IMG/VR virus record: IMGVR_UViG_3300011114_000282
Coordinates: 1-35,168 of that record
Direction: 5' to 3' (one strand)
Origin: a virus
Length of the DNA: 35,168 nucleotides
Shown here: piece after piece, positions 5,360-8,505 of the stretch
Numbering within the stretch: position 1 is the stretch's first letter
How the letters are laid out: the number at the start of each line of letters is the position of its first letter
Position numbers and translations under genes: made by a program
The notes under the pieces: model-generated
Databases searched by the model: none
Told to the model about the DNA's origin: nothing
The model's input: the letters and a program-made list of their open reading frames with translations, nothing else

Positions 5360-6148
5360 ATGTCAAACACTAACGTCAACTGGTCAGCATTACTCTCTGA
5401 TGCTGTCAATCAACCCGGCATTCTGAGCAGTGCCTACTCTACTTTTCACCAGTACAGCATCGGGAATCAAATGATGGCCTACAGCCAATTGGCTGCAAGG
5501 GGAGAGCAGTTAACACCTATTGCAACTTATGCCAAATGGAAAGCCTTGGGCCGTCAAGTAAAGAAAGGCGCGAAAGCACTGCAACTATGTATGCCCGTCA
5601 CCATCACTAAGAAAGACGAAGCGGGAGAAAAGACAGGGGAAGCATTCCAGTTGTTTGTACTTAAAAATAACTGGTTTGCTATGTCTCAGACTGAGGGAGC
5701 AGACTATCAGCATGAGCAAGTAACCCCTGAGTGGTCGAAAGAATTGGCACTCTCAGTGCTTGGCATCACCGAAGTGTCTTTCGATATGCTAGATGGCAAT
5801 TGCCAAGGCTATGCAACTGGTAAGAATATCGCTGTCAACCCTGTTGCAGTCTTACCGCATAAAACACGGTTCCATGAGTTAGCCCATGTAGTTTTAGGGC
5901 ACACAGCAGAGGGCACAATGTCGGACAATGAGCGCACACCGAAAAGCATTCGGGAAGTTGAAGCGGAGTCTGTAGCATATATCTGCTGCTCAGTGCTCAA
6001 TTTAGAGGGTTTGACAGAATCACGGGGTTACATTCAAAATTGGCTGCAAGATGGTGAAATCAGCGATAAGACAGCGCAGCGCATATTCGGAGCAGCAGAG
6101 AAAATCTTAAAGTCTGGTAAGGCTAAAACAGAGACAGCAGCAGAGTGA
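5360..6148 (+). CDS. ardC: ArdC-like antirestriction protein with zincin domain
   Basis: 262 residues. The N-terminal half (about 1-115) matches the ArdC N-terminal domain: LLSDAVNQPG near the start, then YATYAKW-like IATYAKWKALGRQVKKGAKA and a beta-rich end, a region linked to single-stranded DNA binding. The C-terminal half is a metallopeptidase with HELAHVVLGH (H172, E173, H176) and a downstream acidic helix REVEAESVAYICC, giving the HExxH plus Glu zinc site. ArdC-type proteins protect incoming DNA from restriction. As first gene of the early operon, right behind the strongest promoter, it would be made at once after entry. It shares the zincin fold with ImmA/IrrE proteases. Confidence 0.9.
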   Translation: MSNTNVNWSALLSDAVNQPGILSSAYSTFHQYSIGNQMMAYSQLAARGEQLTPIATYAKWKALGRQVKKGAKALQLCMPVTITKKDEAGEKTGEAFQLFVLKNNWFAMSQTEGADYQHEQVTPEWSKELALSVLGITEVSFDMLDGNCQGYATGKNIAVNPVAVLPHKTRFHELAHVVLGHTAEGTMSDNERTPKSIREVEAESVAYICCSVLNLEGLTESRGYIQNWLQDGEISDKTAQRIFGAAEKILKSGKAKTETAAE

Positions 6149-6477: not shown

Positions 6478-6645
6478 ATGAATCACACTACAAAACGCTA
6501 CCCGCGCACCCTCGCGCAAGCCTTCCCACGGCATCCAGAGGCCCATTTTGAGGACGATAGCGGCTGGGATGGGCACAAGGTGCTAGAGTGTGCCCTAATC
6601 GTTCTAATCGTGGCCCTGCCGGTGTTCTTTTGGCTGGCCCCATAA
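6478..6645 (+). CDS. Small single-pass membrane protein
   Basis: 55 residues. The N-terminus contains RYPRTLAQAFPRHPEAH, then a short acidic stretch, then one strongly hydrophobic helix (ALIVLIVALPVFFWLA) ending at the C-terminus. The soluble part is probably cytoplasmic, held by a C-terminal anchor. I recall similar RYPRTL-AFPR proteins in Burkholderiales phages and plasmids, which hints at the host group. Role unknown. It starts three bases after the previous stop. Confidence 0.7.
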   Translation: MNHTTKRYPRTLAQAFPRHPEAHFEDDSGWDGHKVLECALIVLIVALPVFFWLAP

Positions 6646-6657
6646 GGTTTAGAGAGG

Positions 6658-6748
6658 GATGGTTGTCCTGAGTGTCAGCTACTCAGGGTTTACCCTAAAC
6701 GAAGTCCGTAAGCAAAAAACACTGCTTTATGTGAGCAACCATCTTTTT
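6658..6748 (+). ncRNA. Candidate structured RNA with closing stem and T-run
   Basis: GATGGTTG (6658-6665) pairs perfectly with CAACCATC (6736-6743), followed by five T. Inside the closed loop are three further hairpins: CCTGAGT/ACTCAGG (6667-6673 with 6681-6687), GTTTA/TAAAC (6688-6692 with 6696-6700) and AAGCA/TGCTT (6710-6714 with 6723-6727). The layout resembles a cloverleaf, but the arms and T-loop sequence exclude a normal tRNA. It may be an RNA ending in its own terminator or a leader element. No clear promoter precedes it. Confidence 0.5.
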
Positions 6749-6765
6749 CTATGTATAATTTTCGT

Positions 6766-6859
6766 GTTGCCGTAGGAAGCGACAGAATGAAGCCGTTTAC
6801 TCATGCCTCTTCCCCATATCGTGGGGTTCCTACAGGGGGCAGCAGTAAACGGCTTTTTT
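6766..6859 (+). ncRNA. Candidate small RNA with terminator and pseudoknot potential
   Basis: A TATAAT at 6754-6759 could start a transcript near 6766, although its -35 is poor. The RNA ends in a perfect 11-bp stem, AGCCGTTTACT (6791-6801) with AGTAAACGGCT (6844-6854), leading into six T at 6854-6859. Its large loop holds CCCCA/TGGGG (6812-6816 with 6822-6826). GTAGGAA (6772-6778), upstream of the stem, is complementary to TTCCTAC (6827-6833) inside the loop, which gives a pseudoknot topology. No ORF of note lies inside. I do not recognise the family. Confidence 0.6.
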
Positions 6860-7076
6860 ATTGCCCCTACGCGCAACCGCCCATGTGTCGGGGTCAACAC
6901 GACAGGCATGGGGGATAGGTGACTACTGTGGGAAAGCGTGAGAGAGTCACAGGGGCGGCGAAGATAGAACCCCTACGCGAACGTCTGTCGGGCATGTGCG
7001 GCTCCGTCCGAGTGTGTAGAAGGCTAGTCCCTTTCAGTGGGGAGGGCTAGGCTTTGCTCACCATCCGAGTGAGGGT
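6860..7076. other. Non-coding stretch with further hairpins
   Basis: No convincing gene. CCCATGTGTCG (6880-6890) pairs with CGACA-GG-CATGGG (6900-6912) with a two-base bulge. GTGACT (6919-6924) pairs with AGTCAC (6945-6950). CTCAC (7057-7061) pairs with GTGAG (7069-7073). TTGCCCCT at 6861-6868 could compete for the G-rich strand at 6835-6840 of the preceding RNA. The block resembles the left control region in carrying CACAGGGG followed by TAGAACCC (compare 4979-4998 with 6948-6973). Confidence 0.55.
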
Positions 7077-7080
7077 TTAG

Positions 7081-7122
7081 AGTAGGTAGAAAGCTATAGT
7101 AGGTAAGGGATTAGAGTAGGTA
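7081..7122 (+). repeat. Three iterons, AGTAGGTA every 17 bp
   Basis: The octamer AGTAGGTA begins at 7081, 7098 and 7115, exactly 17 bases apart. The first and third copies lie in the longer identical TTAGAGTAGGTAG (7077-7089 and 7111-7123). A degenerate copy, AGAGGGTA, follows at 7138. Evenly spaced short repeats of this kind are typical of initiator or regulator binding sites. They lie just before the next gene cluster. Confidence 0.65.
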
Positions 7123-7150
7123 GTAATCTTTTTTTTTAGAGGGTAAGACT

Positions 7151-7243
7151 ATGGATGAGTTCAAGACTTTCAGAGGGCTATTAGCCTTCCTCTTTTTTTT
7201 AACAGGCTTAGTGTTATTGCTGGCTGCATGGTGGACATCATGA
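7151..7243 (+). CDS. Tiny membrane protein, 30 residues
   Basis: ATG 7151 follows GAGGG with suitable spacing. The product has a charged start (MDEFKTFRG) and then one hydrophobic helix (LLAFLFFLTGLVLLLAAWW). Its TGA overlaps the next ATG as ATGA, which strongly supports translation. Such small single-pass proteins in early regions may alter the host membrane or act as holin-like toxins; the function is not readable from sequence. Confidence 0.65.
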   Translation: MDEFKTFRGLLAFLFFLTGLVLLLAAWWTS

Positions 7244-7464
7244 GCAAGATGACAGACTGGTTTCCCCCGCACGTCAAGCCTGTGCGCGAGGGTGTGTACG
7301 AAATTAGATTTGCAAATAGACAAAAAAAGGATGCACCCATGTACGCTACATGGAATGGGCGATGGTCTTGTTGGTCACACTACAAAGACGATTTGTATCA
7401 CACACGATTTCTTGAAGCAGTGCAAAACAAATGCTGGCGCGGGTTTACTAAGGAGCAAACATGA
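7240..7464 (+). CDS. Conserved small phage hypothetical protein
   Basis: 74 residues from ATG 7240, chosen over an in-frame ATG at 7228 because it overlaps the previous stop (ATGA) and has GGTGGA upstream. The sequence WFPPHVKPVREGVYEIRF followed by YATWNGRWSCWS resembles a widespread short phage family with a W-P-x-x-x-P-V-R-x-G-x-Y-E pattern and a Trp-rich beta strand. Function unknown in the family. Coupled by ATGA to a zinc-ribbon mini-gene. Confidence 0.7.
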   Translation: MSKMTDWFPPHVKPVREGVYEIRFANRQKKDAPMYATWNGRWSCWSHYKDDLYHTRFLEAVQNKCWRGFTKEQT

Positions 7465-7726: not shown

Positions 7727-8505
7727 TGACAGGCTACGAATCAAAACGCGCAGCAGCGCAAGCAAAGACAATAGACGAAGTTAATTGGGCAGATCATGAG
7801 CCTGATGGGTTGTCACACCTAGCGCAGGAACCTGTGGTTTTTAACACGCTCACATCGCTAAGACACAAGAAAACTGTTGGCCCTATTGAAAGCGCAATGA
7901 GGAACATCGCCTCGGCACAGCCAGCGCAGGTATACCAAGACCACGACGATGCGCTGACGATTGCATATCAAAGCGGATACTACGATGGCAAGAAAGCAGC
8001 ACAGCCAGCGCAGGAGCCAATAAATGTCAGGGCTAAATTTTTGTCTGAGAACATTGTGGAAAGCATTGACTGTGGGGACGCTGCCGGAGCAAAAGCCACT
8101 CTTGAAATGCTTACAGCCTTGGCACAGCCAGCGCAGGAGCCGTTTGGCTATTTCCGATATGACGCACGCCTTGATGCGTGGGTGCAAAACTGTGGGAACA
8201 ATCAAGGCACTCCGTTTTACACCACCCCACCACAGCGCAAGCCGCTGAATAAAGAGCCGCCACCGTGGTGGCCTGCTGTTGAAAATATCTTGAACGAGTA
8301 CGGCTTGCAGGCAGTAGATTTTGTTGCTGACTTTAAGAATGCCTTGGCACAGCCAGAGCAAGAGCCTGTGGCAAATGACAGAGCATTGCAACTTGTTACA
8401 CATCAATTAAATCATTGGGTAGCTTATGCGACAGAGTTGCGAGAAAGGCTGAATAAGTACGAAGGCGGTGCGCCAATGCTTTTAAATAAGGAGAAGAACA
8501 CATGA
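7726..8505 (+). CDS. Modular hypothetical protein with AQPAQEP linkers
   Basis: 259 residues made of short segments separated by an AQPAQEP-type linker (copies at residues about 30-36, 64-69, 90-97, 133-139 and 206-212). The DNA of each linker is a 15-base repeat, CACAGCCAGCGCAGG or close variants, at 7814, 7916, 8000, 8123 and 8348. One segment, GTPFYTTPPQRKPL, matches a pattern common in phage proteins of unknown function. The last segment (ALQLVTHQLNHWVAYATELRE) is helical. Recombination between repeats could add or remove segments. Confidence 0.7.
   Translation: MTGYESKRAAAQAKTIDEVNWADHEPDGLSHLAQEPVVFNTLTSLRHKKTVGPIESAMRNIASAQPAQVYQDHDDALTIAYQSGYYDGKKAAQPAQEPINVRAKFLSENIVESIDCGDAAGAKATLEMLTALAQPAQEPFGYFRYDARLDAWVQNCGNNQGTPFYTTPPQRKPLNKEPPPWWPAVENILNEYGLQAVDFVADFKNALAQPEQEPVANDRALQLVTHQLNHWVAYATELRERLNKYEGGAPMLLNKEKNT

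Follow-up and report, generated by a model that had tools for sequence, protein, structure and literature searches.

A small RNA and a second RNA near an ardC-like gene

The window analyzed here is the whole of a 35,168-nucleotide virus record (IMG/VR IMGVR_UViG_3300011114_000282). An ardC-like gene at positions 5360-6148 neighbors a small RNA, referred to as R1, which is followed by a linker and by a second RNA, RNA2 (Table 1). A first-pass annotation of the DNA letters alone had proposed a new folded regulatory RNA here, transcribed on its own from non-coding sequence next to ardC. TATAAT, the 11-bp stem, the six T residues, the GTAGGAA/TTCCTAC complementarity and the CCCCA/TGGGG hairpin on which that proposal rested are all present where it had placed them, the neighboring gene is confirmed, and no plus-strand open reading frame of at least 60 amino acids in the window's list overlaps the R1 region. 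No tRNA or tmRNA was found in the window.

R1 consists of a 5' hairpin (P1) and a long terminator hairpin in which stem P2, a 2x2 internal loop, P2b and the apical hairpin P3 follow one another in this order. P3 varies in length among family members, and a 7-nt bulge on its 3' side pairs with the P1 loop, forming a helix that crosses the nested ones. The predicted fold of R1 has an energy of -44.6 kcal/mol, compared with -25.8 ± 3.3 kcal/mol for shuffled sequences (z -5.6).

Table 1. Coordinates of R1, the linker and RNA2 in the window.
Feature	Position	Strand	Basis or remark
-10 element of the R1 promoter, TATAAT	6754-6759	+	Sequence; fixed -10 spacing among relatives
R1, small RNA of approximately 94 nt	6766-6859	+	5' hairpin P1, terminator stem with U-tract, crossing helix
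P1, 5' hairpin GUUGC-CGUAGGAA-GCGAC	6766-6783; strands 6766-6770/6779-6783 (GTTGC/GCGAC)	+	Covaries as helix 1 of alignment A1; minimum free energy (MFE) fold
Crossing helix, 5' strand GUAGGAA in the P1 loop	6772-6778	+	Complement of UUCCUAC at 6827-6833
P2, terminator stem of 11 bp, AGCCGTTTACT/AGTAAACGGCT	6791-6801/6844-6854	+	Sequence; covariation
2x2 internal loop, CA opposite GC	6802-6803/6842-6843	+	CA/GY in most members
P2b, 8 bp, above the 2x2 internal loop	6804-6811/6834-6841	+	A1 columns 49-56/90-97; fold
P3, apical hairpin CCCC-AUAUCGU-GGGG	6812-6826; CCCCA/TGGGG 6812-6816/6822-6826	+	Fold; covaries
Crossing helix, 3' strand UUCCUAC, bulge between P3 and P2b	6827-6833	+	A1 covariation; loop/bulge swap test
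U-tract TTTTTT	6854-6859	+	With the P2 3' strand (6844-6859), intrinsic terminator ending R1 (sequence, fold)
P0 3' strand, linker complementary to the R1 5' end (6763-6777)	6865-6880	+	Duplex of -19.1 kcal/mol in the window
RNA2, Rfam RF02932 (Betaproteobacteria-1)	6878-6993	+	80.6 bits against a gathering threshold of 49.4
Conserved 3' continuation of RNA2 beyond the Rfam model	6994-7075	+	GGCUCCG...GAAGG...GCUCACCAUCC; alignment A3 columns

The promoter assignment is based on relatives of R1. When 175 distinct sequences upstream of R1 are compared, the end of the best-matching -10 hexamer falls 6 or 7 nt ahead of the initial GUUG in 170; the hexamer matches at least four of six positions in 161, and a perfect TTGACA -35 element precedes it at a spacing of 16-18 nt in 54. 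This spacing places the predicted R1 5' end on the opening base of P1 (6766), 6 nt after TATAAT, and the 3' end of R1 is predicted from the sequence to lie in the U-tract. The -35 element of the window is weak, and a simple scanner detected no two-hexamer promoter in the window. The promoter call is stronger than the first-pass annotation could have known, and the autonomous unit proposed there stands, with transcription itself, termination and readthrough remaining inferences in the absence of expression data.

A cmscan of positions 6500-7300 against Rfam 15 (E up to 10) returned only RF02932, downstream of R1, and a chance SNORD10 match upstream, so that no Rfam 15 model matches R1 at this threshold and the proposed novelty holds to that extent. 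We found no earlier description of R1 in the literature searched, and many subscription papers lay outside that search; a previous account elsewhere than in Rfam remains possible.

Covariation and distribution of the R1 family

All four helices of R1, including the crossing helix, covary. The first-pass annotation had named homologous loci without compensatory changes as grounds for refutation, and the alignments do not refute it. Of the cells in alignment A1, 92.5% are paired; double changes occur in 261, compared with 71 in shuffles and at most 79 when the pairing partner is slid; P2 and P2b together show double changes at 10 of 19 pairs. The crossing helix was evaluated separately using loop and bulge segments taken directly from the loci, one locus per distinct P1 loop. 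At least 7 bp form with the locus's own bulge for 38 of 40 distinct loops, while swapping bulges between loci yields a mean of only 2.75 (maximum 9) such helices, in keeping with the earlier suggestion that the two crossing helices are unlikely to be chance. Exact bulge complements exist for loops as dissimilar as GUAGGAA, GUCGUGU, GUUGCAC and GUGACGG. These swap controls draw on related phages, and their phylogeny was not modeled. The conserved A1 block UUACUCAUGC/GCAGYAGUAA owes part of its conservation to the pattern used in the search; a query without it retrieves loci with compensated changes (UUACACAUGC/GCAGUUGUAA and others), and loci from an independent pattern carry the internal loop variants UC/GU and UG/CU. 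Pair counts from alignment A2 were not relied upon because the R1 unit is nearly palindromic and antisense-strand matches are mixed in. As far as sequence can establish it, R1 is virtually certain to exist as a structured RNA. Of the original proposal, the folded and new character of the RNA thus stands, through covariation and the lack of an Rfam 15 match, and its regulatory role is only inferred.

A covariance model built from 49 R1 sequences matches approximately 225 IMG/VR phage contigs, usually with one R1 each, and the window, whose own row is part of the model, scores 93.7 bits (E 4.8e-18). Weak reverse-strand matches occur at a few R1 sites because of the near-palindromic nature of the unit. 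The terminator-stem pattern alone matches 49 IMG/VR contigs, a looser stem pattern at least 120, and a pattern of P1 and the crossing helix without any constraint on the terminator stem gives at least 119 matches. Many model matches also lie in loci fetched by a Betaproteobacteria-1 pattern. R1 is present in the window and in 33 loci fetched by other means, namely the Betaproteobacteria-1 pattern or ArdC relatives, with the exception of two metagenome-assembled genomes (MAGs) that came from the R1 pattern, and in these loci it is mostly positioned directly before RNA2. Divergent R1-like units with long complementary loop/bulge pairs, some scoring below the model threshold, precede Betaproteobacteria-1 in several further groups of loci (L009, L022, L030 and L041; L010 and L028; L005, L024 and L049; L047 and L050).

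Annotated records contain little of this family. The R1 region gave no blastn match among 50,697 phage and 72,556 plasmid records, and a blastn query of R1 together with another RNA2 class recovered a single annotated record, the complete phage genome MW202484.1 (L286:7999-8383), which contains R1 at 7999-8097 of the locus (78.9 bits). In this record a hypothetical protein has been annotated across the start of the cassette, where it overlays R1 and the RNA after it. A pattern scan of bacterial assemblies produced only two matches, both on short betaproteobacterial MAG contigs, and in the family of the Comamonadaceae MAG the R1 model was positive in one of 401 genomes; R1 is therefore phage-borne and not a common host chromosomal RNA. 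R1 is carried by freshwater phages of betaproteobacteria, and most contigs bearing it are metagenomic fragments.

RNA2 and the linker that pairs with R1

R1 opens a cassette of two RNAs, an arrangement not recognized in the first-pass annotation. Directly behind the terminator, 204 of 209 R1 loci, near-duplicates counted, have a region whose conservation extends to one or more other loci, and this region contains a second RNA of about 200 nt that belongs to one of several classes. This arrangement of R1 before a second RNA is real and is found in more than 200 phage fragments. In the window, RNA2 corresponds to model positions 1-120 of RF02932, and R1 lies wholly outside the match. The Rfam model looks truncated, judging by sequence conservation that continues for about 80 nt past its 3' end. 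More than half of the loci fetched only by the Betaproteobacteria-1 core pattern have R1 just upstream. A scan of other RNA2 classes against Rfam gave nothing beyond Betaproteobacteria-1 and one tRNA. Classes without an Rfam match include one found in L060, L113, L128 and L133 and another in L070, L086, L087, L097 and L108, and two further groups are formed by L067, L145 and L058 and by L062, L064 and L093. In one class distinct from Betaproteobacteria-1, 23 of the 29 predicted pairs carry double changes. Inspection by eye revealed no sigma-70 promoter between the U-tract and RNA2 from which RNA2 could be transcribed. Overall, we are highly confident that R1 and RNA2 are coupled. Betaproteobacteria-1 also occurs without an R1 match, in some loci directly after a stop codon, and RNA2 therefore does not always need R1.

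Individual loci showed additional RNA features. The tRNA match is a tRNA-like insert within the RNA2 of L065 (positions 5790-5855, RF00005, 33.6 bits), and L154 may hold another by eye. In L087, positions 132-190 on the strand opposite R1 give a sub-threshold match to Betaproteobacteria toxic small RNA (RF02278, 40.6 bits against a threshold of 50).

The R1 5' end possesses a second, competing partner downstream of the terminator, likewise absent from the first-pass annotation. The first ~14 nt of R1, comprising the P1 5' strand and loop, are also complementary to the linker that separates the U-tract from RNA2, and we refer to the resulting helix as P0. For 51 loci with distinct loops, the P0 duplex averages -12.66 kcal/mol with the locus's own linker and -9.92 ± 0.34 kcal/mol with swapped linkers, the best of 500 swaps reaching -10.85 kcal/mol. 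No excess pairing was seen in these loci 28, 60, 100 or 150 nt further downstream. In MFE folds of R1 plus the 28-nt linker, P0 is present in 48 of 51 cases with the own linker, 33 of 51 with swapped, 20 of 51 with shuffled and 19 of 50 with offset segments. Both GUUG and CAAC are frequent, so that even swapped linkers reach 6.5 bp, leaving a locus-specific excess of about 3.5 bp. Across the family, the MFE fold of R1 without the linker contains P1 in 224 of 225 loci, and addition of the linker places P0 in the MFE fold of 217 of 225. Since P0 uses bases of both P1 and the crossing helix, the two states are mutually exclusive. In L074, where a coding sequence replaces RNA2, P0 reaches only -5.1 kcal/mol and P1, the pseudoknot and the terminator are kept. 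A functional P0 is well supported and, in our judgment, quite probable. P0 can form only once termination has been decided and therefore has no way to govern that decision in cis; it must act in trans or bear on what becomes of the readthrough transcript.

Proposed mode of action and its alternatives

The cassette occupies varied positions in phage genomes: before RepO, between RusA and primase-helicase, after TerL, before TerS and before YqaJ/RecT. The nearest downstream open reading frame is co-directional in 158 of 197 loci, and the first labeled downstream gene varies among RepO, RusA, primase-helicase, TerS, a structural protein and YqaJ. No common downstream gene or shared neighboring protein family was detected among labeled neighbors. 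An apparently conserved protein running through R1 (76 loci, one cluster) was rejected as spurious, its reading frames starting and ending at different points within R1 and RNA2. A type III toxin-antitoxin RNA was also set aside, there being a single unit per locus and no shared neighboring protein family.

We lean, with limited assurance, toward R1 being a genuine phage small RNA of about 94 nt that is at the same time the promoter-proximal attenuator of the two-RNA cassette, switching between the P1/pseudoknot state and P0. The basis for this is the sequence, the promoter position, the covarying helices, the tandem arrangement and a linker complementarity that follows the loop sequence. A sigma-70 promoter would start transcription at the first base of P1. 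P1 would form, followed by the P2-P2b-P3 terminator hairpin, and the P1 loop would pair with the strand beside P3. Most polymerases would stop at the U-tract and release R1, which should be stable since its 5' base is paired and its 3' end is a terminator hairpin. A minority would read through, whereupon the linker could capture the R1 5' strand and loop as P0, dissolving P1 and the pseudoknot, and RNA2, in this case Betaproteobacteria-1, would be synthesized and perhaps excised. The pseudoknot and P0 draw on a single variable loop sequence, and terminated R1 might therefore also bind, in trans, the linker on its own readthrough RNA, which would give each phage a self-specific control of RNA2. 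Transcription, termination, readthrough, the presence of both states in the cell, RNA2 processing and any regulatory outcome are inferred without RNA data. A more speculative extension, which we consider rather unlikely, treats R1 and RNA2 as a modular, horizontally shuffled two-RNA system with exchangeable large RNAs, in which the hypervariable loop, matched to its own pseudoknot strand and linker, serves as a self/non-self tag between co-infecting phages. If this were true, each R1 would act only on transcripts of its own genome.

The principal alternative, possible yet doubtful, is that R1 is a stable trans-acting structured small RNA that a host or phage protein binds as decoy or ligand. 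RNA2 would then be a separate RNA, transcribed as part of the operon around it, and the linker complementarity would merely insulate or mature RNA2, for example through RNase III cutting of the P0/P2 rod. The R1 promoter and terminator, the normally single copy per genome and the variable neighbors are compatible with such a role, as are the conserved 2x2 internal loop and UGC/GCA in the terminator stem, which resemble a protein contact, and the existence of Betaproteobacteria-1-class RNA2 without R1. It leaves unexplained, however, why R1 adjoins RNA2 in almost every locus and why the P0 partner tracks changes in the P1 loop. R1 could instead be a by-product without function, made by an operon leader, late or early, of the lambda pR'/tR' (6S RNA) type that a phage antiterminator protein bypasses. 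In favor of this reading, the promoter and terminator run in the direction of the downstream genes and in some phages lie ahead of TerS/TerL or behind TerL, but the cassette precedes RepO, primase-helicase or YqaJ/RecT in others, the lambda location between Q and the late genes is not met given the varied positions of R1, and a mere terminator needs neither a covarying pseudoknot nor a linker that follows it. We regard such a leader as improbable.

A cis-acting riboswitch or attenuator for one downstream gene is more improbable still. The pseudoknotted hairpin ahead of a terminator stem and the usually co-directional downstream frame point in that direction, but no antiterminator overlaps P2 and a consistent target is missing; the lack of a common gene renders a gene-specific riboswitch unlikely, and a trans-acting RNA or an element acting on RNA2 fits better. 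We give scarcely any credence to the last possibility, that the signal acts as DNA rather than RNA, being an inverted repeat that belongs to a mobile element or a recombination site. Together with the linker, R1 does make up an imperfect inverted repeat of roughly 115 bp, whose genomic location and accompanying second RNA vary, but the fixed -10 distance, the U-tract, the bulged nested architecture and a crossing helix that tolerates G-U pairs are features of RNA, and labeled neighbors have no transposase or integrase cluster in common. An integron attC-like site, suggested by this inverted repeat, was considered and set aside since the features are those of a transcript and the outer GTT..AAC of the R1 repeat is the reverse of the attC arrangement.

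For the attenuator reading, the nearest published logic would be that of IsrK, a short terminated small RNA of the Salmonella prophage Gifsy-1. Part of the transcripts read through the IsrK terminator, the stable downstream ncRNA STnc1160 is thought to derive from the readthrough RNA, and IsrK, which shares complementary sequences with STnc1160, acts in trans on that RNA (PMC4825925). R1 is similarly complementary to sequence downstream of its own terminator. The IsrK readthrough RNA is, however, an mRNA (orf45, anrP) tied to antQ (PMC4825925), whereas the R1 partner is a structured RNA, the neighbors of R1 vary and no Rfam model matches R1 even with E allowed up to 10. As to isrK homology, the only match of the region among the 4227 Rfam models, which may or may not include isrK, is RF02932, besides the chance SNORD10. 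A cousin of this logic is the P4 CI RNA, which, as summarized in the IsrK source, is a short RNA processed from a leader transcript, complementary to the leader sequences seqA and seqC up- and downstream, and acts on termination by pairing (PMC4825925). Both it and R1 are short phage RNAs complementary to flanking sequence, but R1 has its own promoter and terminator. These similarities are ones of outline, and relatedness has not been demonstrated.

GOLLD and ROOL are ornate phage RNAs of unknown function that contain pseudoknots, and GOLLD can carry tRNAs (PMC12286853). R1 resembles them as a phage-borne structured RNA with a pseudoknot, and the RNA2 with the tRNA-like insert recalls the tRNAs of GOLLD, but GOLLD and ROOL are far larger, and no Rfam match to either was obtained in the loci scanned. 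R1 is a separate unit from Betaproteobacteria-1, which lies immediately downstream as the RNA2 of the window. R1 adds a widespread structured RNA class to a phage group with few annotated records, with covariation that is unusually clear for a pseudoknot, and gives the orphan Betaproteobacteria-1 RNA a context as one of several interchangeable second RNAs behind a common leader. The competition between P1/pseudoknot and P0 offers specific, testable predictions on how the terminator of a phage small RNA might link it to a second RNA.

Just upstream of the R1 -10 element, at positions 6658-6748 of the window, lies a long-range stem, GATGGTTG/CAACCATC, followed by five T residues (z -3.5). L008, L054 and L055 share this upstream layout, with compensating stem changes and a common ACACTGCTTTATGTG block. 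A similar block is located between R1 and RNA2 in L257, and the upstream stem block possibly represents a third, movable RNA module.
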